Shown: positions 49,590 to 64,000 of the stretch, one piece after another
How positions within the stretch are numbered: the first letter of the stretch is position 1
Layout: every line of letters begins with the position of its first letter
NCBI GenBank assembly: GCA_030692355.1
Contig: JAUYCF010000076.1
Location: forward strand, 1 to 64,000
Length of the DNA: 64,000 nt
Direction: 5' to 3'
Source: Thiobacillus sp.
GTDB taxonomy: Bacteria; Pseudomonadota; Gammaproteobacteria; Burkholderiales; Thiobacillaceae
The notes under the pieces: model-generated
Databases searched by the model: none
What the model was told of the DNA's origin: nothing
The model's input: the letters and a program-made list of their open reading frames with translations, nothing else
Made by a program: the position numbers and the translations under genes

Positions 49590-50816
49590 TCACCGATCCA
49601 CGCCCGCCTCAATACGCAACAACTCATAGCGTGCCGCCACAGCCTCGGCGAGCGCCTGCCGCAACAACGGTACCGCGGCAGCCGGCAACTGGTCGGCACG
49701 GCTCAGACTATCACGGTAGATGCGCTCGTAATGCTCGGCCGGCAGCACCCGCATGACCAGTACCACGCGCCAGTCGCTGCCCGGCGCTGTGAAGGGCTGC
49801 CGAAAATCGCGCGCCTCACCGGCGGGGATGCGGGTATCGAACAGCTCCCGCGTGATCGGCGTATCGACCTGCCAGCCGATCACCTGGCGCCCCAGTTCGA
49901 AGATGCCGCCATCGGCAGCGTGGCGGTAAAACGCAAGCTCGACCTTCGGCACCATGTAGGTCGGAAAATGATGGCCCGCGCCGCTATTGCGAACGTTCGC
50001 CCGCGCCTCGTAGCGGCCGTCGCCAAGCGCATGCAGCTTCAACGATACATCGATCGCCCGTCGCGTCATCTCCGGATCGTGAATACCGCGCCAGAGGTGC
50101 CGGCGATCCGGCATATGGCAGGACTGGCAGGTCTGCTTGCCGGCCCCCTCCCTGGCGTACGGGCTGGCAAGCCATTGCCGGTAGGTGTCCTCCATCAATT
50201 TGCCGGCGATGCTCGGGCCGTCATCCGGAAACTGGTGGCAATGCGCGCAGAAGCGGCTGTCCCCGAAAGCCGTGGATACGGTAAAGCCGCCATGCGGGAT
50301 GTCGGCGGCGACCTCGGCGCGCGGCGGCGGCCCGAAGCGCTGGTGGCCGCGCACGTGGCAGGCCGCGCAAATCAGGCCCTGATGCCCCAGGTTGGCTTCG
50401 ACATAGTCCGGCGGCGGCTGCTTCGGTGCGTTCGGCCAGCCGTGCTCCAGCGCCAGCAGCGCTTTCTGCTCGGCCAGCGGCGCATGACAGCGCAGGCAAC
50501 GGTTGCCCTGATCCTGATCCATCAATTTGAGCTGCCAGCGCAAGCCGGGGCCCATTGCCTTGCTGTGCAGCGAGGTGCGCCAGGCCGCAAGCTGTTCGGT
50601 ATGGCACTGCCCGCAGGCCTCAGGACTGAGCGAGGCTTCCAGCGGCGAGAACGTGGCCGGCGGAGCACCCTGCGGCGGCATCGGTTCGGTCCAGTGCTTG
50701 CTTAAAAAGGCCTCGATCGCAGGCGCAGGCTTCTCGCCGCAACCTGACAGCAGTCCGAGCAGGAGCGGCAGGGTCGGCAGCACCCACGAGTGCCGCGTAT
50801 GAAAAAGGCGGTTCAA
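49590..50816 (-). CDS. Pentaheme c-type cytochrome lipoprotein (ExtS-type candidate)
   Basis: Five CXXCH (CGQCH, CLRCH, CAACH, CAHCH, CQSCH); lipobox LLLGLLSGC. TTG start proposed at 50816 with SD GGAG; the track ATG at 50876 lies upstream of a terminator hairpin. Confidence 0.85.
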   Translation of the reverse strand: MNRLFHTRHSWVLPTLPLLLGLLSGCGEKPAPAIEAFLSKHWTEPMPPQGAPPATFSPLEASLSPEACGQCHTEQLAAWRTSLHSKAMGPGLRWQLKLMDQDQGNRCLRCHAPLAEQKALLALEHGWPNAPKQPPPDYVEANLGHQGLICAACHVRGHQRFGPPPRAEVAADIPHGGFTVSTAFGDSRFCAHCHQFPDDGPSIAGKLMEDTYRQWLASPYAREGAGKQTCQSCHMPDRRHLWRGIHDPEMTRRAIDVSLKLHALGDGRYEARANVRNSGAGHHFPTYMVPKVELAFYRHAADGGIFELGRQVIGWQVDTPITRELFDTRIPAGEARDFRQPFTAPGSDWRVVLVMRVLPAEHYERIYRDSLSRADQLPAAAVPLLRQALAEAVAARYELLRIEAGVDR

Positions 50817-50829
50817 ATCCAGCTCCACG

Positions 50830-50859
50830 AAAAAAAGGCCCACGAGAGTATCGTGGGCC
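50830..50859 (-). terminator. Rho-independent terminator after the ExtH-like gene
   Basis: Perfect 9-bp stem ggcccacga-gagta-tcgtgggcc (50837-50859) followed on the minus strand by T7. Confidence 0.93.
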
Positions 50860-50890
50860 AGAATAGGAGAAAGCAAGGTTCAGGAGGAAA

Positions 50891-52345
50891 TTAGCCGCCG
50901 CACGGGTTGGCGGGCGGGGCGCTGGTGCCGGCGGTCGGGATCACCTCGCCGTACTTGTAGGCCTTGTCCGCCTCGATGATGGCGTTGGAGGACTTGGCAT
51001 ACGCATCGGTGATGTAGCGCTGGGCCACCAGGGTCGGGCTCGATGCCGCGCGATAGAAGGACTTCGCGTCGGTGCGCCACGGCGAATCCTCGGGCAGGAT
51101 CGCATTGCCGGTCGCGTCGGTGATGACGCTTCCCGGGGTCAGCGAACTCCACTCCACCATCGCACCATCGTAGAAACGGGTCGGCTTGCCGAGAATCACG
51201 GCACTGGCGACGCCGGTGATCATCGCCCGGAAGGTCGTCTCGCAGTAGGTGTAGATGACGTCGCCCGGCTGGTACGCATTGCCGAAGCCGACCTGCTGGT
51301 AGTTTCCGGCGATGAAGCCGGCACCGCTGACGTTGCCGTCCAGGTAGGCCTGCAAATCCGCCTTATCCTTGTATCGATAACCTTCGGCGGCGACGAGCAT
51401 ATTGGTGAAGTCGAGCTGCAACGCGCCCCACGGATGGCCCTGACGCGAGCCGCTGTTCTGGAAGGTGGTCATGTAGTTCGCGACCGGGGTGATCGTGTTC
51501 GCAGTGCTGGTTTCGCCGGCACTGTATTGCGAAATGTTGCGCGCATCCCAGATGAAGACGCCGTCGTTCAGGACGTTGGTATCGCTCGCGGGCAGGACGC
51601 GCAGCATGTCGCCCACCGTCGCCTGAAGCTGCGTATTGTCAACCAGCAGATCTTTGACCGAGGCGTGTCCGTTGTTAGGCGCCGTGCTTGCGGTTGCCTG
51701 GAAGTCGCCAGCGCCCATGCCGTTGGTATTGATCCACTGGTTGCCGCCGTTGAGGATGGCCAGATTCTTCTTGTCGACGCCCCAGTAGCGCAGCGCGTAC
51801 CAGATTCGGCCCTGCGCCATCGCGTTGCCGGTGTTGCCGACGCCCATGGCGGCGACGATCATGTCGTTTTGCGGGTCGATGTCGTATTTCTTCAGCAACG
51901 CGTCCATGCTGGCGCCGTCCGGCACCATGCTCGCCGTCTCGATCACGCCGTTACTGCGGGTCTGAATCCACTCGCTGCCAGGCGAAAGATAGGTAAACAC
52001 GCTGGTCCCGTTCGGCTTGATGTATTCCACGCCCGCCGGGCACGCTGGAGTTGAAGTTGTTAGGCACCCTGAAACCTGCAGGATGACCAGCTTTCCGGTA
52101 ATTCCGGCCGGACGATTGGCAAGCCAGTTGTCTTTCCAGCGTTTGAGCGTCGCTGCGGTGATCAGGCCGTTTTCGTTCAGGTTGTAATCGTCGGCCGACA
52201 CCTGGGCGATCGCCGCCGGCGTGTTCACCGGAATTTGTGTCACCAGCGCTGTCGTGTCCTCGCCGCCGCCGCCGCAGCCCTGCAGGCCCAGCGCCATTGC
52301 CAGGACGGTCATGCCGGCCCAGCCCCTATTCATCTGCTTGTTCAT
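50891..52345 (-). CDS. extH: Rhodanese-like lipoprotein, ExtH-like (selenite/tellurite reduction operon type)
   Basis: MNKQMNRGWAGMTVLAMALGLQGCGGGG lipobox; GVFIWDARNISQYSAG and catalytic loop IYTYCETTFRAMITG; NMLVAAEGYRYKDKADLQAYLDGN. Confidence 0.7.
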   Translation of the reverse strand: MNKQMNRGWAGMTVLAMALGLQGCGGGGEDTTALVTQIPVNTPAAIAQVSADDYNLNENGLITAATLKRWKDNWLANRPAGITGKLVILQVSGCLTTSTPACPAGVEYIKPNGTSVFTYLSPGSEWIQTRSNGVIETASMVPDGASMDALLKKYDIDPQNDMIVAAMGVGNTGNAMAQGRIWYALRYWGVDKKNLAILNGGNQWINTNGMGAGDFQATASTAPNNGHASVKDLLVDNTQLQATVGDMLRVLPASDTNVLNDGVFIWDARNISQYSAGETSTANTITPVANYMTTFQNSGSRQGHPWGALQLDFTNMLVAAEGYRYKDKADLQAYLDGNVSGAGFIAGNYQQVGFGNAYQPGDVIYTYCETTFRAMITGVASAVILGKPTRFYDGAMVEWSSLTPGSVITDATGNAILPEDSPWRTDAKSFYRAASSPTLVAQRYITDAYAKSSNAIIEADKAYKYGEVIPTAGTSAPPANPCGG

Positions 52346-52414
52346 TGAGAATCCTCCATCCATTATCAAGCCCGCGCCCACCTTGCCGGACGGCAAGACG
52401 GCGCACCCATAGCG

Positions 52415-52446
52415 GCCGGCCCGCCGGGGCCGGCGGTAAAACCGCC
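52415..52446 (-). promoter_or_regulatory. Mutually exclusive hairpins in the leader before extH-like
   Basis: gccggccc/gggccggc (52415-52422/52427-52434) and ggcggt/accgcc (52432-52437/52441-52446) share 52432-52434. Confidence 0.4.
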
Positions 52447-52499
52447 CGTCCCGGCCATGCACAACCTCCACCGCGACCATGGCCGCGGGCAAAACACTT

Positions 52500-52685
52500 T
52501 CAATCCAGCGGTGCTTTCAGCACCACCGGCATCCAGTCCTGTTCCAGCGCATCGAGCAATGCGCCGTAATCGTCCGTATTCATTTCCCGCACGTGCGCAC
52601 CAGCGGCGCGCAAGGCTTCGGCCAGGCCCGGCATCGCCGGCACCGCCGCGGGATTGATCAGCAAAACCCGTTTTTCCGTGCTCAT
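52500..52685 (-). CDS. Small protein of the DsrE-like operon, function unknown
   Basis: MSTEKRVLLINPAAVPAMPGLAEALRAAGAHVREMNTDDYGALLDALEQDWMPVVLKAPLD; 4-bp overlap with the upstream gene. Confidence 0.6.
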   Translation of the reverse strand: MSTEKRVLLINPAAVPAMPGLAEALRAAGAHVREMNTDDYGALLDALEQDWMPVVLKAPLD

Positions 52686-52942
52686 ACGCAATACACCACG
52701 TCATGGTCGAGGATCTGCCCCGCCAGGACCGCCATGGCGTCACCGGCGGGGTCGAGTTCCACCACGGGCACCTCGGCGAATTCCAGCGCTTCCATTTGTT
52801 CCGCCACGCCGGCACTTTCAGGCAGCCTGCCCAAGGTGGCGATGGTGACGGCGTCGTCGAGCAGGGTGAGTCCGCTGGCCATGCGCAGCGCTTCGACCGG
52901 TTTCTGCACGGCCACCATCAGAATGTGTTTTTGATCAGCCAT
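52682..52942 (-). CDS. DsrE-family-like small protein
   Basis: ADQKHILMVAVQKPVEALRMASGLTLLDDAVTIATLGRLPESAGVAEQMEALEFAEVPVVEL; DsrE/F-like fold pattern and context. Confidence 0.6.
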   Translation of the reverse strand: MADQKHILMVAVQKPVEALRMASGLTLLDDAVTIATLGRLPESAGVAEQMEALEFAEVPVVELDPAGDAMAVLAGQILDHDVVYCV

Positions 52943-52951
52943 GTCCCGTCC

Positions 52952-53263
52952 TCAGAAAACCAGCACCTTGTCGCACTTGCGCACGAGTTCGGCGTCCTGG
53001 TACTGGCCGCCGACGACGACGATGTCGGCGAGGGTGTTGAGGTCGAACCTGCCGGCGGCGTAATGCCCGGCGCTGTGCTCGCATAGGGTAACGCTGTTCG
53101 GGCGCGCCCGGGCGCGCTCGACAAACCCTGCATCGGCGAGCAGGTTGACGCCGGTGTCGGTCAGGAAGCTCAGGGTTTCCCAACCGCGCGCGGTCGCCGC
53201 GTCGATCAGGCCGTTCGCCTGCGGCAGAAAGCGTTCATCGGTGATCACGATACCCAGTTGCAT
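52952..53263 (-). CDS. DsrE-like sulfur relay family protein
   Basis: MQLGIVITDERFLPQANGLIDAATARGWETLSFLTDTGVNLLADAGFV...SVTLCEHSAGHY; between TusA and the small DsrE-like protein. Confidence 0.65.
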   Translation of the reverse strand: MQLGIVITDERFLPQANGLIDAATARGWETLSFLTDTGVNLLADAGFVERARARPNSVTLCEHSAGHYAAGRFDLNTLADIVVVGGQYQDAELVRKCDKVLVF

Positions 53264-53266
53264 GAC

Positions 53267-53512
53267 TCAGGCCTTCCTGATCTTCCAGGTGAAGGAACCG
53301 CTTCCCTCCTGGCGATCGATCAGGTCGTTACCCTCGGCTTCGCACATGGCCATGATCGATTCGCCCGAGGAAGGGTTGTCGAAAACCAGGCTCAGTACGT
53401 CGCCGCTTTCCAGCTTCTGCAGCGCTTTCTTGGTGTACATCTGCGGATGCGGGCAGGCGTAGCCGCACACGTTCAGCTCCCATTCTCCATCGGCGGTCTT
53501 GTTGAAACTCAT
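53267..53512 (-). CDS. TusA-family sulfurtransferase
   Basis: LNVCGYACPHPQMYTKKALQKLESGDVLSLVFDNPSSGESI; CPxP motif. Confidence 0.9.
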   Translation of the reverse strand: MSFNKTADGEWELNVCGYACPHPQMYTKKALQKLESGDVLSLVFDNPSSGESIMAMCEAEGNDLIDRQEGSGSFTWKIRKA

Positions 53513-53575
53513 TGCCATAACCTTGCTCCTTGATAACCAATAACGGATTGCTTGTCTTGAATTTCCGGGCAGCCC

Positions 53576-55027
53576 TTAGAGGCCGCACTCCGAACCCTTG
53601 CGGGCATCGTTCCAGTCCATGTACCAGGTGAAGGCCTTCACCCCGACATAGGCGCCGATCACCATTCCGAACAGGAACACCCAGCCGCTGGGATCGCCGT
53701 TGGTGACGGTGGCGAAGAACGCGCCGATGTTGCAGCCCATGGCGAGTCGGGCGCCGATGCCCATCAGCGTGCCGCCGACGATGGCGAAGAACGCGGTTTC
53801 CCAGCTCGGCAGCTTCCACTTGAACTCGCGACGCGCCAGCGCCATCACCGAGGCGCCGAGAATGATGCCGATCGACATGAAGCCGGGGGCGTTCAGCAGC
53901 GGGTTGGGCAGGCCGTTGTCGAGGCCGAAGAAAATGCTGTCCATGCTGTTGATGCCGAGCTGCTGCATGATCCAGCCGCCCCACTGCGCTTCCTGGGTGG
54001 TGATGTACCAGTAGCCGGGATCGAACACGGTGTCCTGGATCGACAGGCCGTTGGTATAGCCCATCGCCACCAGCAGTTCGCCGAAGTTGAAAATGTCATA
54101 GTGTTCGCGCAGCGCGCCGGTGACGTACATGTGCAGGCCGGCGAGGATGCCCAGGCCGATGCCGGCCAGCGCGGTGTTTTTCGACGAGATGCACATGGCC
54201 CAGATGCCGGCGATTTCGTCGCCCAGGGACGGCGCGGTCTTGCCGGTGCGGCGCAGGTGGCCCTTGCGGTAATAGAAGACGTACAGCGCAACGAGGATGA
54301 TGGCAACCGGCAGGATCGCGGTCAGCATCGTATTCATGAGCACGATGCCGGTAGCGGTCTCAGCCATGCCAAACGCTTCGGCGGTGGTGGAACCCTTGAG
54401 ATCCCAGATGTAGCCGGCGGTGAAGATATCGAACCAGCCTTCGTTGACGGTCAGCTCAGCCGGCATGTCCTTGGCGGCGGCTGAATCGATCCAGGATTGC
54501 GGCACCAGCGAATCCCACCAGCCGCTGGCGGTGACGACGATGGCCTGCGAGAACGAGATGGCCACGATCACCAGCATCGAGTTCATGTTGCCCTCGCCCG
54601 CCTTGTACAGCGAACCGGAGGCGCACCCCCCCGTGAAGACGATGCCGAAGCCGAAGATCGCCGCGCCGATGACGATATGCCAGCCCATCGCATTGGGATG
54701 GAACGTGCTGAAACCGGCCAGGGTGACCACGGTGGCCACCAGCGCATAGAGCGCCACGGCGATCATCATGCCCACCGCCATGCGCGGCACCTTCACCGCA
54801 AACAGGTCGCGCACCGCCGATGCCATGCAGAAGCGGCCGTACTGCAGCAGCACACCGTATGCCAGACCGAACCAGACATAAACCAGCAGATAGAGGAAGC
54901 GCGAATCCTGTGCCAACGCCCACACCGAGCCGATGACCACGAGCAGGAAAACACCCATCGCCTGAAGACTGCTTTTACGAAACAGCCAATGCGTTTCAGT
55001 TGCGATACTTGCCGACGCTACATTCAC
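53576..55027 (-). CDS. YeeE/YedE-family (TsuA-like) sulfur-compound transporter
   Basis: YGRFCMASAVRDLF, GFGIVFTGGCASGSLYKAGEGNMNSM, RLAMGCNIGAFFATVTNGDPSGWVFLFGMVIGAYVG. Confidence 0.93.
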   Translation of the reverse strand: MNVASASIATETHWLFRKSSLQAMGVFLLVVIGSVWALAQDSRFLYLLVYVWFGLAYGVLLQYGRFCMASAVRDLFAVKVPRMAVGMMIAVALYALVATVVTLAGFSTFHPNAMGWHIVIGAAIFGFGIVFTGGCASGSLYKAGEGNMNSMLVIVAISFSQAIVVTASGWWDSLVPQSWIDSAAAKDMPAELTVNEGWFDIFTAGYIWDLKGSTTAEAFGMAETATGIVLMNTMLTAILPVAIILVALYVFYYRKGHLRRTGKTAPSLGDEIAGIWAMCISSKNTALAGIGLGILAGLHMYVTGALREHYDIFNFGELLVAMGYTNGLSIQDTVFDPGYWYITTQEAQWGGWIMQQLGINSMDSIFFGLDNGLPNPLLNAPGFMSIGIILGASVMALARREFKWKLPSWETAFFAIVGGTLMGIGARLAMGCNIGAFFATVTNGDPSGWVFLFGMVIGAYVGVKAFTWYMDWNDARKGSECGL

Positions 55028-55049
55028 TCACACTCTCCTCAGCAAAACC

Positions 55050-55069
55050 GGCGGGCCTGGCAGGCCGCC
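55050..55069 (-). terminator. Terminator-like or attenuator hairpin between the tusA-like gene and yeeE
   Basis: Minus strand GGCGGCCTGCCAGGCCCGCC followed by GGTTTTG; 8 bp with one bulge. Confidence 0.4.
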
Positions 55070-55082
55070 CCATATATTGCAT

Positions 55083-55430
55083 TTATTGCACTGCCTTAAA
55101 AAAACCCTTGCGCAGGTAAACACGCCAGCAATCAGGTGCCCGAACCGTGGCGAGATGCGTGCAGCCGAGCGCCTGCGCCAGCGCAGGAAACCCCTCGACA
55201 GCCGTGGGATTGTCGAGCACCACTTCGATGGCCGCACCCGACCCGACTTCGCCCAGCACCTTCATGGTCAGCAACTGCGGCCGCGGGCACATGGCGCCCA
55301 GGCAATCGACCGAGCGCACCACATGCACACACCCCAAACCGGGGACATCGATGTCCTTGTTAACCAGGCTAGCCATACCGGCTGGGCGGTCATGAAGACG
55401 ATCGAACAGACTGTTCACTTGCACGCGCAT
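55083..55430 (-). CDS. TusA-like sulfurtransferase (first gene of the sulfur operon)
   Basis: VDCLGAMCPRPQLLTMKVLGEVGSGAAIEVVLDNPTAVEGFPALAQALGC; CPxP motif. Start at 55430 or 55376. Confidence 0.85.
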   Translation of the reverse strand: MRVQVNSLFDRLHDRPAGMASLVNKDIDVPGLGCVHVVRSVDCLGAMCPRPQLLTMKVLGEVGSGAAIEVVLDNPTAVEGFPALAQALGCTHLATVRAPDCWRVYLRKGFFKAVQ

Positions 55431-55455
55431 CCTCCGCTTGGCGACCCGCATTAAT

Positions 55456-55472
55456 AAGCACGTTGCGTGCCA
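55456..55472 (-). promoter_or_regulatory. Sigma-54 (-24/-12) promoter at the head of the sulfur operon
   Basis: Minus strand TGGCACGCAACGTGCTT: GG-N10-GC spacing and perfect TGGCACG -24 element. Confidence 0.75.
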
Positions 55473-55773
55473 CATTAATTTGTCTTTTGCAAACATATGG
55501 TTATTCCAACTCGCGGGTTTCCATCCAATGAAAAATGCAATAGCGCCGGTTTTATGGTTTGGCGCTGGTGTCTTTTGCAACGGGAAAACATCCAGGCTGG
55601 CGGCGAGACACTTGAGAGACACCGATCAACTCATCACGCGGCGACACGGCATACGATTCCACGTGGCCTTCGCCCATGGAAAGTCTGGGTAGCCCAGTAA
55701 TGTCCGCTTGGCCAAGGCGCTGGATTGCCGCGTTTCGATGGGCGGAGCCACGCCATCGGTCAAGGCGCGGGGG

Positions 55774-58116
55774 TCAGGCAGTCAGGCGCCGCCAGGTTGC
55801 CACCACGGTATCGGGATTGAGCGACATCGAGCCGATTCCCTGCGCCACCAGCCAGTCGGCCAGGTCGGGGTGATCGCTCGGCCCCTGGCCGCAGATGCCG
55901 ATGTATTTGCCTTGCCGCTTGCAGGCAGCAATGGCTTCGGCCAGCAGCTTTTTCACCGCCGGATTGCGCTCGTCGAAGCCTTCCGCCACCAGGCCGGAAT
56001 CGCGGTCGATGCCCAGCGTCAGCTGGGTGAGGTCGTTGCTGCCGATGGAAAAGCCGTCGACGTGCTGCAAAAAATCGTCGGCCAGCAGCACGTTTGAGGG
56101 AATCTCGCACATCATGATCAGGCGCAGGCCATGGTCGCCGCGCTTGAGGCCGTTTGCCTCCAGCAGTTTCACCACCGCCGCGCATTCTTCCACCGTGCGG
56201 ACGAAGGGGATCATCACCTCGACGTTGGAAAAGCCCATCGTTTCGCGCACCTGTTTCAGCGCGCGGCACTCCAGCTCGAACGCAGGACGGAACAGCGCCG
56301 ACACGTAGCGCGCCGCGCCGCGCAGCCCCAGCATGGGGTTTTCCTCCTTCGGCTCGTAGCGCGCGCCGCCCACCAGGTTGGCGTATTCGTTGGACTTGAA
56401 GTCCGACAGCCGCACGATCACCGGCTGCGGCCAGAACGCGGCGGCCAGGGTGGCGATGCCCTCGGCCAGCTTGTCCACATAAAACGACACCGGGTCGGCA
56501 TAGCCCGCCGTGCGCGCATCGATCTCGGCGCGAACGTCCGGCGGCTGGCCGGCATGGTCGAGCAGCGCCAGCGGATGCACGCCGATCATGCGCGCGATGA
56601 TGAATTCCAGCCGCGCCAGACCGACGCCGTGATTTGGAATCTGCGCGAACTCGAAGGCGCGCTCTGGATTGCCGACGTTCATCATCAGCTTCACCGGCGG
56701 CTCGGCCAGCGTTTCGATCGCCAGCGTCTCCACGGTGAAGGCCAGCTTGCCCGCATAGACCATGCCGGTGTCGCCCTCGGCGCACGACACCGTCACCAAT
56801 TCGCCGTCCTTCAGTATGGTGGTCGCCTCGCCGGTGCCCACCACGGCGGGAATACCCAGCTCGCGCGCGACAATGGCGGCGTGGCAGGTGCGCCCGCCGC
56901 GGTTGGTGACGATTGCCGCCGCGCGTTTCATCACCGGCTCCCAGTCGGGGTCGGTCATGTCGGTGACGAGGATGTCGCCCGGCTGCACCCGGTTCATTTC
57001 CGCCGGGCTGGCGATCAGCCGCACTTCGCCCACGCCGATTTTCTGGCCGATGGCGCGGCCGGTGATGCGCACCTCGCCGGCAGCTTCCAGGGTATAGCGT
57101 TCGCCGACGCCGCTGGCGCGCGCCTTCACCGTTTCCGGGCGCGCCTGCACGATGAAGAGTTCGCCGGTCTCGCCGTCCTTCGCCCACTCGACGTCCATCG
57201 GGCGCTGGTAGTGCGCCTCGATCGCCACCGCCTGGCGCGCCAGTTCCAGCACCTCGGCATCGGTCAGCGAATACTGCCGGCGCAGCTCCGCCGGCGTGTC
57301 CTCGATCACGGTCGCGCCTTCGCGCCACACCATGCGGGTCGCTTTCTCGCCCAGCTCGCGCCGCACCACGGCGGGAAATCCCTCGGCCAGCTTCGGTTTG
57401 TGCACATAGAACTCGTCCGGATTGACCGAGCCCTGCACCACGGTTTCGCCCAGCCCGTAGGCGGCGGTGATGAACACCACGTCGCGGAAGCCGGATTCGG
57501 TGTCCAGCGTGAACAGCACGCCCGCACAGGCAATGTCGGAGCGCACCATGCGCTGCACGCCCGCCGACAGCGCCACGTCGGCATGCGCGAAGCCGTGGTG
57601 CACCCGGTAGGCAATGGCGCGGTCGTTGTAGAGCGAGGCGAAGACCTTGCTTACATAGCGCAGCAGGTCGTCGGCACCCTGCACGTGCAGGTAGGTTTCC
57701 TGCTGGCCGGCAAACGAGGCATCGGGCAGGTCCTCGGCGGTGGCCGACGAGCGCACCGCCACCGACACGTTGTCGCCGAGCGCGGCATACGCCGTGCGCA
57801 GGCCGGTTTCGAGCGCGGCCGGCAACGCGGCCGCCTCGACCCAGGCGCGGATTTCCGCCCCCGCCGCGGCCAGCGCCGTCACGTCCGCCACGTCGAGCGC
57901 CGCCAGCCGTTCATGAATGCGCGCGCGCAAATCGTTGTGGTCGAGAAAATCCCAGAACGCCTGCGCCGTGGTGGCGAAGCCGCCCGGCACCTTGACGCCG
58001 GCGCCGGACAGATTGCCGATCATCTCGCCCAGCGACGCATTCTTGCCGCCCACGCGCGGCACGTCCGCCATCGACAGGCTATCCAGCGAAACGATATAGT
58101 CAGTTGAAGCCTGCAT
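55774..58116 (-). CDS. ppsA: Phosphoenolpyruvate synthase
   Basis: 780 aa; [54 protein letters not shown]. Confidence 0.98.
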
Positions 58117-58126
58117 AATTCACCCC

Positions 58127-58903
58127 ATGAAAAGCCACAGCGTTTTCTGCGTATCCGATCACACCGGTGTCACCGTCGAGGCGGTGGCGAAGAGCGTGCT
58201 GGCGCAGTTTCCTGCACTTGAGTTTAGCCTGATTGCGCTGCCTTTCATCGACAGCCCGGAAAAGGCGCGGGCCGCCGCGGCGCGGATTGCCGCCACGCCC
58301 GGCGCGCTGGTGTTTTCCACCCTGACCGACCCGGCCCTGCGCGCCGCCCTGCGCGACAGCCGCGCCAGCCTGTTCGATGTCTTCGACCTCGTCGCTCCCG
58401 CCGTGGAAGCCGCGCTGGGCCTGGCCGCCACCCCCAGCGGCGGGCGCACCCACGGCATGGCGAACGACTACGAATCGCGCATGGACGCGGTGAATTTCAG
58501 CCTGGCGCTGGACGACGGTCTGCAGCCGCAACGGCTCGACCAGGCCGACCTGATCCTGGTCGGCGTCTCGCGCGTCGGCAAAACCCCCAGCGCGCTCTAC
58601 CTCGCCCTGCAATACGGTCTGCGCGTCGCCAACTATCCGCTGACGCCGGACGACCTCGAACAGGACAGCCTGCCCGGCGTCCTGCTCGCCCACCTGCCGC
58701 GCCTGCGTGCCCTGACCCTGTCGGCGGAACGCCTCGCCGCCATCCGCCAGGTGCGCTATCCCGACAGCCGCTACGCCAGCCTGCGGCAATGCCGCGACGA
58801 ACTTGCCGCCGCCAAACGGCTATTCGGGCAGCATGGCCTGCCCGTGCTGGACACCACCCGCATGTCGGTGGAGGAAATCGCGGCGCGCCTGCGGTATTCC
58901 TGA
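58127..58903 (+). CDS. ppsR: PEP synthase regulatory protein (bifunctional kinase/pyrophosphorylase)
   Basis: VFCVSDHTGVTVEAVAKSVLAQF...ADLILVGVSRVGKTPSALYLALQYGLRVANYPL; divergent from ppsA. Confidence 0.97.
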   Translation: MKSHSVFCVSDHTGVTVEAVAKSVLAQFPALEFSLIALPFIDSPEKARAAAARIAATPGALVFSTLTDPALRAALRDSRASLFDVFDLVAPAVEAALGLAATPSGGRTHGMANDYESRMDAVNFSLALDDGLQPQRLDQADLILVGVSRVGKTPSALYLALQYGLRVANYPLTPDDLEQDSLPGVLLAHLPRLRALTLSAERLAAIRQVRYPDSRYASLRQCRDELAAAKRLFGQHGLPVLDTTRMSVEEIAARLRYS

Positions 58904-60190: not shown

Positions 60191-60970
60191 TCAGACCAGG
60201 CGCTGCCGCACGGCTTCGAAAACGGCGATCGCCAATGCCGCCGAGGCATTCAGCGATTCCATTTTTCCCGGCATGGGAATCTGAACCGTTGCGGTTGCCG
60301 CGGCACGCACATCGTCCGACAGCCCGGCGCCTTCGTTGCCCACAATGAAGGCAAGCGGGCCCGTCAGATCGCTTGAAAACACACTGCGATCTTCAGCCAA
60401 TGCAAGGGCAAGGCTTTGTCCTTTGAATTGCGCGCACCAAGCAGGTACATCCACCCCCCGTTCGATCGGCAACACAAACTGCGCGCCCTGCCCGCCGCGC
60501 AGCGCCTTCGGCGACCAGGGATCGTGACAGCCCTTCGACAGCACCGCCAGGGTGGCGCCCGCCGCCGCCGCGGTACGCAGCATGGAACCCAGATTGCCGG
60601 GGTCCTGGATGTCTTCCAGCACGATCGCCAGCGGCGTCGTCGTGGCGGGCGCCGGCGCAAGCCAGGCGGCTTCGGCGAGCACCCCGGTCGGCGTGGCGAC
60701 GGGGGACAGTTCGGCGAATAACACATCGGACAGGACGATGACCCTGGCCTGCGAACAGCGCGCGGCAAACGGGGTCAGCCGCGCGGCATCGAACGCGGCG
60801 GCCCGCACCAGGGTATGCGGCTGGCCGCCCGCATCGAGGTACGCCGTCAGCAGATGCTCGCCGTCGAGCAGGGTCATCTGCGCTTCCCTGCGCGCACGGG
60901 CGGACTCGGACAGCTTTTTCAGCCGCTTGAACAGGGGATTGTCGCGCGAGGAAATGGGCGTTTCGGTCAT
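60191..60970 (-). CDS. SpoU/TrmH-family RNA 2'-O-methyltransferase
   Basis: LAIVLEDIQDPGNLGSMLRTAAAAGA...LAFIVGNEGAGLSDDV...IPMPGKMESLNASAALAIAVFE. Confidence 0.95.
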   Translation of the reverse strand: MTETPISSRDNPLFKRLKKLSESARARREAQMTLLDGEHLLTAYLDAGGQPHTLVRAAAFDAARLTPFAARCSQARVIVLSDVLFAELSPVATPTGVLAEAAWLAPAPATTTPLAIVLEDIQDPGNLGSMLRTAAAAGATLAVLSKGCHDPWSPKALRGGQGAQFVLPIERGVDVPAWCAQFKGQSLALALAEDRSVFSSDLTGPLAFIVGNEGAGLSDDVRAAATATVQIPMPGKMESLNASAALAIAVFEAVRQRLV

Positions 60971-61015
60971 GCCCGGATTATCCGCGTTTCACTATCGCAC
61001 GCTACACTTCATACG

Positions 61016-61975
61016 ATGCGCATCGCCCTCATCACCCCCTACGGTCGCGAACACCGCAACGGCAACTGGCACACGGCCGCGCGCTGGGCGCGCTTCCTGC
61101 GCGAGGCGGGCCACACGGTGCGGACGCAGGTGGAATGGGATGGCCGCAGCACCGACCTGATGCTGGCGCTGCATGCGCGGCGCAGCTTTGCTTCGATCCG
61201 CGCCTTTGCCGAGCGCTTTCCGACCCGCCCGCTGTTGCTGGCGCTAACCGGCACCGACCTGTATCGCGACATCCACCAGGACGCCGACGCCCAGCAGGCG
61301 CTGGAACTCGCGCACCGGCTGATCGTGCTGCAGGCGCGCGGCGTCGACGAACTGCCGGCGCATCTGGCCGCCAGGACGCGGGTGGTCTACCAGTCGTCGC
61401 CCGACATTGCCCGTCTGCCCGCGCCTGCCCATACTTTCGAGGTGCTGGTGATCGGCAACCTGCGCGAAGAAAAGGATCCCTTCCGGGCGGCGCTGGCGAC
61501 GGCCTACCTGCCCGAGCAATCGCTGATTCGCGTGACGCATCTGGGCGGCGCCCTCTCCGGGGAGATGGCCGAAACGGCGGAGATGGCGCAGAGCAAGCTG
61601 CCGCGCTGGCACTGGGCCGGGGAGGTGCCGCACCGGACGGTGCTGAAGCGGCTGGCGCGCGCGCACCTGATGGTCATCAGCTCGGTGATGGAAGGCGGCG
61701 CCAACGTCATCTGCGAGGCGCTGGCGGCGGATGTGCCGGTGCTGGCCTCGCACATGCCCGGCAATATCGGCATGCTGGGCGAAGACTACCCCGGCTATTT
61801 CCCGGTGGGCGACGAACGACAGCTGGCTACACTCTTGTCGAGGGCCGAAACCGACCCCGATTTTTATGCCGATCTGTTGAGCCACGCCCGCCAGCGTCGC
61901 GGGCTGATGCGGCCGGAGCAGGAAGCCAGCCGCCTGCGGCAGGTCGTGGCGGAATTCGAGCAAGGCGCGGTGTGA
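61016..61975 (+). CDS. senB: SenB-like selenosugar synthase (TIGR04348-type glycosyltransferase)
   Basis: MRIALITPYGREHRNGNWHTAARWARFLREAGHTVRTQ...LHARRSFASIRAF...LALTGTDLYRDI...VISSVMEGGANVICEALAADVPVLASHMPGNIGMLGEDYPGYFPVGD. Confidence 0.75.
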   Translation: MRIALITPYGREHRNGNWHTAARWARFLREAGHTVRTQVEWDGRSTDLMLALHARRSFASIRAFAERFPTRPLLLALTGTDLYRDIHQDADAQQALELAHRLIVLQARGVDELPAHLAARTRVVYQSSPDIARLPAPAHTFEVLVIGNLREEKDPFRAALATAYLPEQSLIRVTHLGGALSGEMAETAEMAQSKLPRWHWAGEVPHRTVLKRLARAHLMVISSVMEGGANVICEALAADVPVLASHMPGNIGMLGEDYPGYFPVGDERQLATLLSRAETDPDFYADLLSHARQRRGLMRPEQEASRLRQVVAEFEQGAV

Positions 61976-62000: not shown

Positions 62001-62669
62001 TCACCCCTCGTCGAACAGGATACCGAACATGCGCGCGCGTTCGGCCGCGCTCAAACCGCGCAGCACACGCACCGCCTGGCGCGCGACCCGTTCATCGCGC
62101 GTGATCGAATATTCGATCGCCAGCGTGCGCCAGACGTCGGCCAGCGCCGGGTCGGACGCCTGCAGCTTTTGCAGCGCCTGGGTCACCCCCGCCTGCCCCT
62201 TCGTCAGATAGAACGTCAGCCCCAGGTTGTGCCAGGCCTGAATGTAGTCGGGGTCGGTTTCCACGGCCGCGCGATACGCCTGCATCGCCTCGCGGGGACG
62301 CCCGCTGTCGCGGTAGGTGTTGCCCAGATTGTTGTGCGCATAGACATCGCCGGGCGCGAAGCGCAGATTCCGCTGGTACGCCGCGATGGCTTCGGCAAAC
62401 CGCCCCAGCTCGCCCAGCGCGCGCCCCTGAACGAACCAGGCCAGCGGATTCTTCGCATCGGCCTGTGCCCACGTTTGCCCCCACGCCAGCAGCCCCGGCC
62501 AGTCGGCGCGTTTTTCAAGCACCTGCGCCTGCAGCACCCACTCGGCCTGCGAACGCGCCGCAAGCACCGCCTGGCTGCCATCCAGACCAAACGTCTGGGC
62601 GGCAGCCGCCACCGGGCCGGTAAACGCAAGGGCAAGCAGCAACGGGAGTAAAGCGATACGGTCAGGCAT
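62001..62669 (-). CDS. Secreted TPR-repeat protein
   Basis: MPDRIALLPLLLALAFTGPVAAAA signal peptide; consecutive TPRs (GRFAEAIAAYQRNLRFAPGDVYAHNNLGNTYRDSGRPREAMQAYRAAVETDPDYIQAWHNLGLTFY). Confidence 0.8.
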   Translation of the reverse strand: MPDRIALLPLLLALAFTGPVAAAAQTFGLDGSQAVLAARSQAEWVLQAQVLEKRADWPGLLAWGQTWAQADAKNPLAWFVQGRALGELGRFAEAIAAYQRNLRFAPGDVYAHNNLGNTYRDSGRPREAMQAYRAAVETDPDYIQAWHNLGLTFYLTKGQAGVTQALQKLQASDPALADVWRTLAIEYSITRDERVARQAVRVLRGLSAAERARMFGILFDEG

Positions 62670-62778
62670 GGGCGAATTCACAGATTGCAGCTGCCTCGTT
62701 GATGGATCGACATCCGTCATTTTACGCCGCACTTGACGCATCGATTATGCTGTCGGCTGTCCAAAAAAGAGTATCCCC

Positions 62779-64000
62779 ATGCACGCCACCGCCGAACACT
62801 TCATCCCCGGCAAGGACGCCTCGCTCGAAGCGTCGATCGCCACCCTGCAATCCAGGCTCGAAACCATCGGCTTCCATATCGAGGAGCGCTCCTGGCTCAA
62901 TCCGGTGGAGGGCGTGTGGTCGGTGCACATCCGCGACCGCGACTGCCCGCTGCTGTTCACCAACGGCAAGGGCGCCTCGGAACTGGCCGCGCGGGCGAGC
63001 GCGCTGGGCGAGTATTTCGAGCGTCTGTCGACCAATTATTTCTGGACCCACTTCTATCTGGGCGAGACGATCGCCCACCGCAGCTACGTCCACCATCCCG
63101 ACGAGCGCTGGTTTTCTTCAGACGATGACGCCTGGCCGGCCGAACTGCTTACGCCCGAACTGCACGCCCACTACAATCCCGACGACGGCGTGCGTGCCGA
63201 CCAGCTGATCGACCTCAACTCCGGCAACGCCGAACGCGGTATCTGCGCCATCCCCTACCAGCGCCTCGCCGACGGCGAGACCGTGTATTTCCCGGTCAAC
63301 CTCATCGGCAACCTCTACGTCAGCAACGGCATGTCGGCCGGCAACACGCTGATGGAAGCGCGCACCCAGGCGCTGGCCGAAATCTTCGAGCGCCACATCA
63401 AGTTCCGCATCATCGCGGAGGGCCTGTGCCTGCCCGACGTGCCCGAAGCCGTGATCGAGCGCTATCCGCACATCGCCGCCGGCATCCGCGCGTTGCGCTG
63501 CGCCGGCTTCGGCATCCTGGTGAAGGACGCCTCGCTCGGCGGAAAGTATCCGGTGATGAACGTCACCCTGCTGCATCCCAACGACCAGGGCTGCTTCGCC
63601 AGCTTCGGCGCGCACCCGCGCTTCGAAGTCGCGCTGGAGCGCGCGCTGACCGAACTGCTGCAGGGCCGCGCGCTCGATTCGCTGGCGGGTTTCCCCGCCC
63701 CCGGCTTCGACGAAGCCGAAATCGCCGACCCGCAGAACCTGGAAATCCACTTCGTCGATTCCAGCGGCGTGATTTCCTGGCAGTTCCTGCGCGACACCCC
63801 CGACTTCGAATTCGTCGACTGGAATTTCGGCACCACGACCGAAGAGGATTACGCGTGGTCGGTCGATGCGCTGCACGGAGCCGGGCACGACCTCTACATC
63901 GCCGACTTCACCCACCTCGGCGTCTACGCCTGCCGCATCCTGGTGCCCGGCGTCTCCGAGATCTATCCGGTCGAGGAACTCGAATTCGAGAACAACAGCG
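62779..64000 (+). CDS. ycaO: YcaO-family protein, E. coli YcaO-like (3' end outside the window)
   Basis: MHATAEHFIPGKDASLEASIATLQSRLETIGFHIEERSWLNPVEGVWSVHIRDRDCPLLFTNGKGASELAARASALGEYFERLS...GMSAGNTLMEARTQALAEIFERHIKFRII. Confidence 0.92.
   Translation, partial: MHATAEHFIPGKDASLEASIATLQSRLETIGFHIEERSWLNPVEGVWSVHIRDRDCPLLFTNGKGASELAARASALGEYFERLSTNYFWTHFYLGETIAHRSYVHHPDERWFSSDDDAWPAELLTPELHAHYNPDDGVRADQLIDLNSGNAERGICAIPYQRLADGETVYFPVNLIGNLYVSNGMSAGNTLMEARTQALAEIFERHIKFRIIAEGLCLPDVPEAVIERYPHIAAGIRALRCAGFGILVKDASLGGKYPVMNVTLLHPNDQGCFASFGAHPRFEVALERALTELLQGRALDSLAGFPAPGFDEAEIADPQNLEIHFVDSSGVISWQFLRDTPDFEFVDWNFGTTTEEDYAWSVDALHGAGHDLYIADFTHLGVYACRILVPGVSEIYPVEELEFENNS

Follow-up and report, generated by a model that had tools for sequence, protein, structure and literature searches.

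Does a senB gene that stands apart from the other selenoneine genes act alone or as part of the selenoneine pathway? The stretch of DNA analyzed here (64,000 nucleotides from Thiobacillus sp., "the window") carries such a gene at positions 61016 to 61975 of the forward strand, and neither senA nor selD (senC) was found in the 20 kb around it. A sequence-only reading had correctly described these flanks and had taken the gene for an orphan, which would make a selenosugar with no selenoneine step to follow. We consider it probable (roughly 0.88) that the gene encodes the functional SenB of a selenoneine pathway dispersed over two loci of this Thiobacillus-type bacterium. This assessment draws on the presence of the genes, their conserved residues, their synteny, and their co-occurrence, with the reactions extrapolated from the characterized Variovorax enzymes.

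The senB frame runs from an ATG at 61016 to a TGA stop at 61973 to 61975 without a frameshift and encodes 319 amino acids. We compared the protein to TIGR04348 ("selenoneine biosynthesis selenosugar synthase SenB"), a curated equivalog model with a cutoff of 300 bits. It scored 442.4 bits (E = 7e-133) over model positions 1 to 309 of 310, and its second-best family, Glyco4_Geo_Pelo, gave 110 bits (its own cutoff being 400). No other protein of the genome passed the TIGR04348 cutoff; the other eight matches reached at most 47 bits, a level that ordinary group-1 glycosyltransferases in control genomes also reach. At an E value of ≤0.001, the PDB relatives were solely solved SenBs (8k5u, 8jjq, 8jjn, and 8fbx), with E values of about 1e-65 for 8k5u, 8jjq, and 8fbx. 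The N-terminal pattern on which the sequence-only reading had relied is present at residues 15 to 33 (NGNWHTAARWARFLREAGH).

Pairwise alignment with the crystallized Variovorax SenB gave 43% identity, and the possibility that active-site residues had been lost was not borne out. D86 and Q131 are conserved, as are the residues implicated in sugar-donor or selenophosphate binding or in breaking the Se-P bond (N20, T23, H58, R61, T83, T85, R155, K158, E231, and E239; PMC10891094). K158 and E231 were invariant among the 116 SenBs that we collected. The protein thus resembles the SenBs of Variovorax paradoxus and Ramlibacter (TIGR04348; PDB 8FBX, 8JJQ, and 8K5U) in whole-length homology and in its catalytic and selenophosphate-binding residues, but it departs from them at two positions (V157E and H235N), and its gene adjoins neither senA nor selD. 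Both substitutions are the majority states among the 116 SenBs. The second turns the EGGAHV motif into EGGANV; asparagine occupies position 235 in 97 of the 116 proteins, many of them encoded beside senA, and we therefore rejected H235N as a marker of SenBs that lack a SenA. Positions 61016 to 61975 encode an intact, genuine SenB, predicted to use a UDP-sugar and selenophosphate for selenosugar synthesis.

Next, we looked at the rest of the genome, which was searched whole and by family (3.27 Mb in 117 contigs; completeness, 99.99%). In our labeling, senB lies on contig C115. Contig C76 of the same genome carries a compact egtD and selD group, with senA divergent from both and selO after egtD. 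The selD product scored 533 bits against PRK00943 (cutoff, 299) and that of egtD 374 bits against TIGR03438 (cutoff, 291). SenA reached 435.9 bits against NF041186, 16 bits over the cutoff of 420, and 248.7 bits against the EgtB model (cutoff, 360). Its top PDB matches were the selenoneine synthases 8ryz and 8k5i (256 bits), above OvsA and EgtB, and it has the histidines of the GHxxWF and HExMHxE motifs expected for iron binding. In a quick tree, the Thiobacillus SenAs formed a fully supported clade with those of Hydrogenophilus-type genomes on a long stem branch. Because of the narrow margin of 16 bits and the long stem, the exact activity predicted for this SenA carries less certainty than the one predicted for SenB. 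Besides the free SelD of C76, a 759-amino-acid fusion protein, in which a SelD domain is joined to a pyridine-nucleotide oxidoreductase (TIGR03169), is encoded on contig C23 (L010:1390-3669). The sequence-only reading had proposed a genome search for senA, selD, selA, and selU and had allowed that a SelD homolog might be missing; a senA or senC found away from senB would, by its own account, turn the orphan into a mere split pathway, and this is what the genome shows. The search recovered senA and selD on C76 and selU on contig C6, and SelD is encoded both as the free protein and in the fusion; for SelA, the family search of the whole genome found nothing. With SelA absent, SelA-made selenocysteine is not the use of SelD in this genome.

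As predicted from these genes, hercynine supply, selenophosphate supply, and a selenoneine synthase are all encoded in the genome. SelD would provide selenophosphate, and SenB would transfer selenium onto the anomeric carbon of a UDP-sugar, releasing a 1-selenosugar. EgtD would trimethylate histidine to hercynine, which SenA would combine with the selenosugar on the way to selenoneine, an antioxidant. Compared with the senABC cluster of selenoneine biosynthesis (Kayrouz et al. 2022), as far as it is summarized in PMC9814287, the genome likewise encodes SenA, SenB, and SelD/SenC, together with EgtD. It differs from that cluster in having two loci (senB on C115 and egtD-selD-senA on C76, not one cluster) and in a SenA from a divergent clade that also includes those of Hydrogenophilus-type genomes.

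The separation of the two loci does not stem from the assembly. In the window genome, senB lies ~15 kb and senA ~11 kb from the closest contig ends, which leaves a minimum of 26 kb between the two genes even if C115 and C76 adjoin. The same split is found in two single-contig congeners, where senB is ~446 kb (G249) and ~965 kb (G254) from egtD-selD-senA, and it is therefore no assembly artifact. The egtD-selD-senA group also occurs in G271 of the same genus, and selD-senA occurs in G167. Other arrangements exist in the family. G199, of the Hydrogenophilus-type group, has senB, selD, senA, and egtD in one locus, with a senA of the same clade as in Thiobacillus. Two further members carry a linked egtD-senA-senB-selD (fusion) set of a Variovorax-like lineage (G211:C30 [L188] and G218:C10 [L195]), and G229 has two SenBs on separate contigs, one of them beside SenA. 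Several Thiobacillus genomes encode, besides SenA proper, a second SenA- or EgtB-like protein of ~340 bits, below the SenA cutoff (G249:C1:1347478-1348701; also G259, G301, and G248).

The surroundings of senB point to how the split may have arisen. Upstream and divergent lies a gene for a SpoU-family RNA 2'-O-methyltransferase (60191 to 60970, reverse strand; PF00588, 115.6 bits). By the start-codon coordinates, 45 bases (60971 to 61015) separate the two genes, and this gap must, we infer, hold or overlap the senB promoter. Beyond spoU follow ppsR, for the PEP synthase regulatory protein (58127 to 58903, forward strand; PRK05339, 256 bits against a cutoff of 225, and synteny), and a PEP synthase-like gene, ppsA (55774 to 58116, reverse strand), named from a reading of its sequence and from its place beside ppsR in a conserved order. 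On the other side are genes for a TPR-repeat protein (62001 to 62741, reverse strand; TPR Pfam families) and for YcaO, the ribosomal protein S12 methylthiotransferase accessory factor (62779 to 64000, forward strand, continuing beyond the window; NF040716, 725.9 bits against a cutoff of 700). The SpoU, TPR, and YcaO neighbors had been recognized from the sequence, and the Pfam and NCBIfam models agree.

In many Betaproteobacteria outside the genus (e.g., L147, L152 to L155, L160, L164, and L165), the order is ppsA-ppsR-spoU-senA-senB, with senA and senB divergent. The window shares with these loci the ppsA-ppsR-spoU flank and the orientation of senB but is missing the senA that lies there between spoU and senB. 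About 40 Thiobacillus-type loci likewise read ppsA-ppsR-spoU-senB without an intervening senA. Since spoU adjoins senB in nearly all Thiobacillus-type loci and senA-senB in many other Betaproteobacteria, it marks by synteny where senAB ancestrally lay and is not a selenium gene itself; ppsA and ppsR are syntenic markers as well. The simplest reading is that senB kept its ancestral betaproteobacterial place beside spoU and that senA was lost from there. The Thiobacillus senA may either have moved to the second site or have been replaced by a transferred copy, the SenB and SenA trees being quick ones.

The window also contains, at 49590 to 55622, genes for a multiheme cytochrome, an ExtH-like lipoprotein with a rhodanese domain, a pair of TusA-like proteins, and a transporter resembling YedE. 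None of these products reaches a curated NCBIfam cutoff (ExtH-like, 124 bits against 200; YedE-like, 155 bits against 350). The sequence-only reading gave their distance from senB correctly (~6 kb) and suggested a selenium-linked, ext-like locus, a link that these scores and the relatives do not support. Among relatives, such genes lie next to ppsA in L098, L099, and G258 and are absent there in others (the single-contig G249, G306, and the L140 to L143 group), all of which keep ppsA-ppsR-spoU-senB. Their proximity to senB is therefore likely incidental, a chance placement rather than a conserved neighborhood.

We then followed SenB, SenA, and SelD across relatives. Of 199 sampled genomes of the order, 59 had SenB; senA lay within 10 kb in 39 of these and elsewhere in 9, and it was absent at E = 1e-60 in 11. 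SelD was present in 56 of the 59 (P = 7e-7 by Fisher's test, the genomes not being independent), including all 11 that lacked SenA. A loose search (E = 1e-5) found no hidden SenA in these 11 genomes: matches in G014, G182, and G028 were OvoA (685, 685, and 678 bits with the ovoA model), and the others gave weak matches of up to 83 bits or none. Within the family, SenB and SenA co-occurred (P = 6e-10 by Fisher's test on 118 genomes, relatedness not corrected). The 60 family genomes of good quality comprised 34 with both proteins, 15 with SenB only, 1 with SenA only, and 10 with neither, and 14 of the 15 SenB-only genomes encoded SelD. In one genus (G043, G242, G243, G244, and G246), senB adjoins selD and no SenA passes the threshold. 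Genomes with this direct adjacency and no SenA over the threshold include G043 (G043:C1:180579-182482, L082), G242 (L185), and G069 (L091), G043 and G069 being single-contig genomes. Genomes with SenB and SelD and without SenA are possible candidates for a selenosugar-only pathway, as judged from gene content; the window genome is not among them. We found no paper on an orphan SenB in the open-access literature. In Tepidiphilus (L151:2892-7451), a MacB-type ABC exporter set (HlyD, an ATPase, and two MacB permeases) lies beside a SenA-less senB, and related genes occur near senB in three relatives. ABC exporters are common gene neighbors.

How else could the gene be read? It is hardly credible that it is an ordinary GT4 sugar transferase misnamed SenB. 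Pfam detects only Glycos_transf_1 and its kin in the protein, and GT-B enzymes are easily confused, but the protein exceeds the equivalog cutoff by 142 bits and its score for the second-best family by more than 300, the residues of the selenophosphate pocket are preserved, as is K158, and all PDB matches are SenBs. The orphan proposed by the sequence-only reading, with the selenosugar as the end product and no selenoneine in this organism, would fit the absence of senA and selD near senB and relatives such as G043, which have SenB and SelD without SenA. We regard it as very improbable, because senA, selD, and egtD stand together on C76 of the same genome and because SenB, SenA, and SelD are all encoded in 24 of the 28 genomes of good quality in the genus.

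A less remote idea, yet still a quite doubtful one, is that the selenosugar has two uses, one as the SenA substrate and the other as a product in itself or a store of selenium. It would suit the separate transcription units of senB and senA in Thiobacillus and the frequency in the family of genomes with SenB and SelD but no SenA (14 of the 49 good-quality SenB-bearing genomes). Against it, no selenosugar consumer or transporter was identified, and the window genome has the full selenoneine set. Slightly better placed, though unlikely as well, is the wider view that, across the Thiobacillaceae, the selenosugar is more than a selenoneine intermediate and counts as a product itself: whole genera with SelD and SenB and without SenA would make it as such, and in SenA-bearing species, this one included, the separate senB would serve both uses. 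What counts against the dispersed selenoneine pathway is that 15 of the 49 good-quality SenB-bearing family genomes lack SenA, and SenB may have a use of its own.

The preferred reading, a selenoneine pathway dispersed over two loci, removes a false orphan and leaves the known pathway, in two pieces. In Thiobacillus, selenoneine genes need to be sought genome-wide rather than by cluster, as surveys demanding senA beside senB would overlook almost all of its members. The place to look for a genuine selenosugar-only pathway is the family members with senB-selD and without senA.
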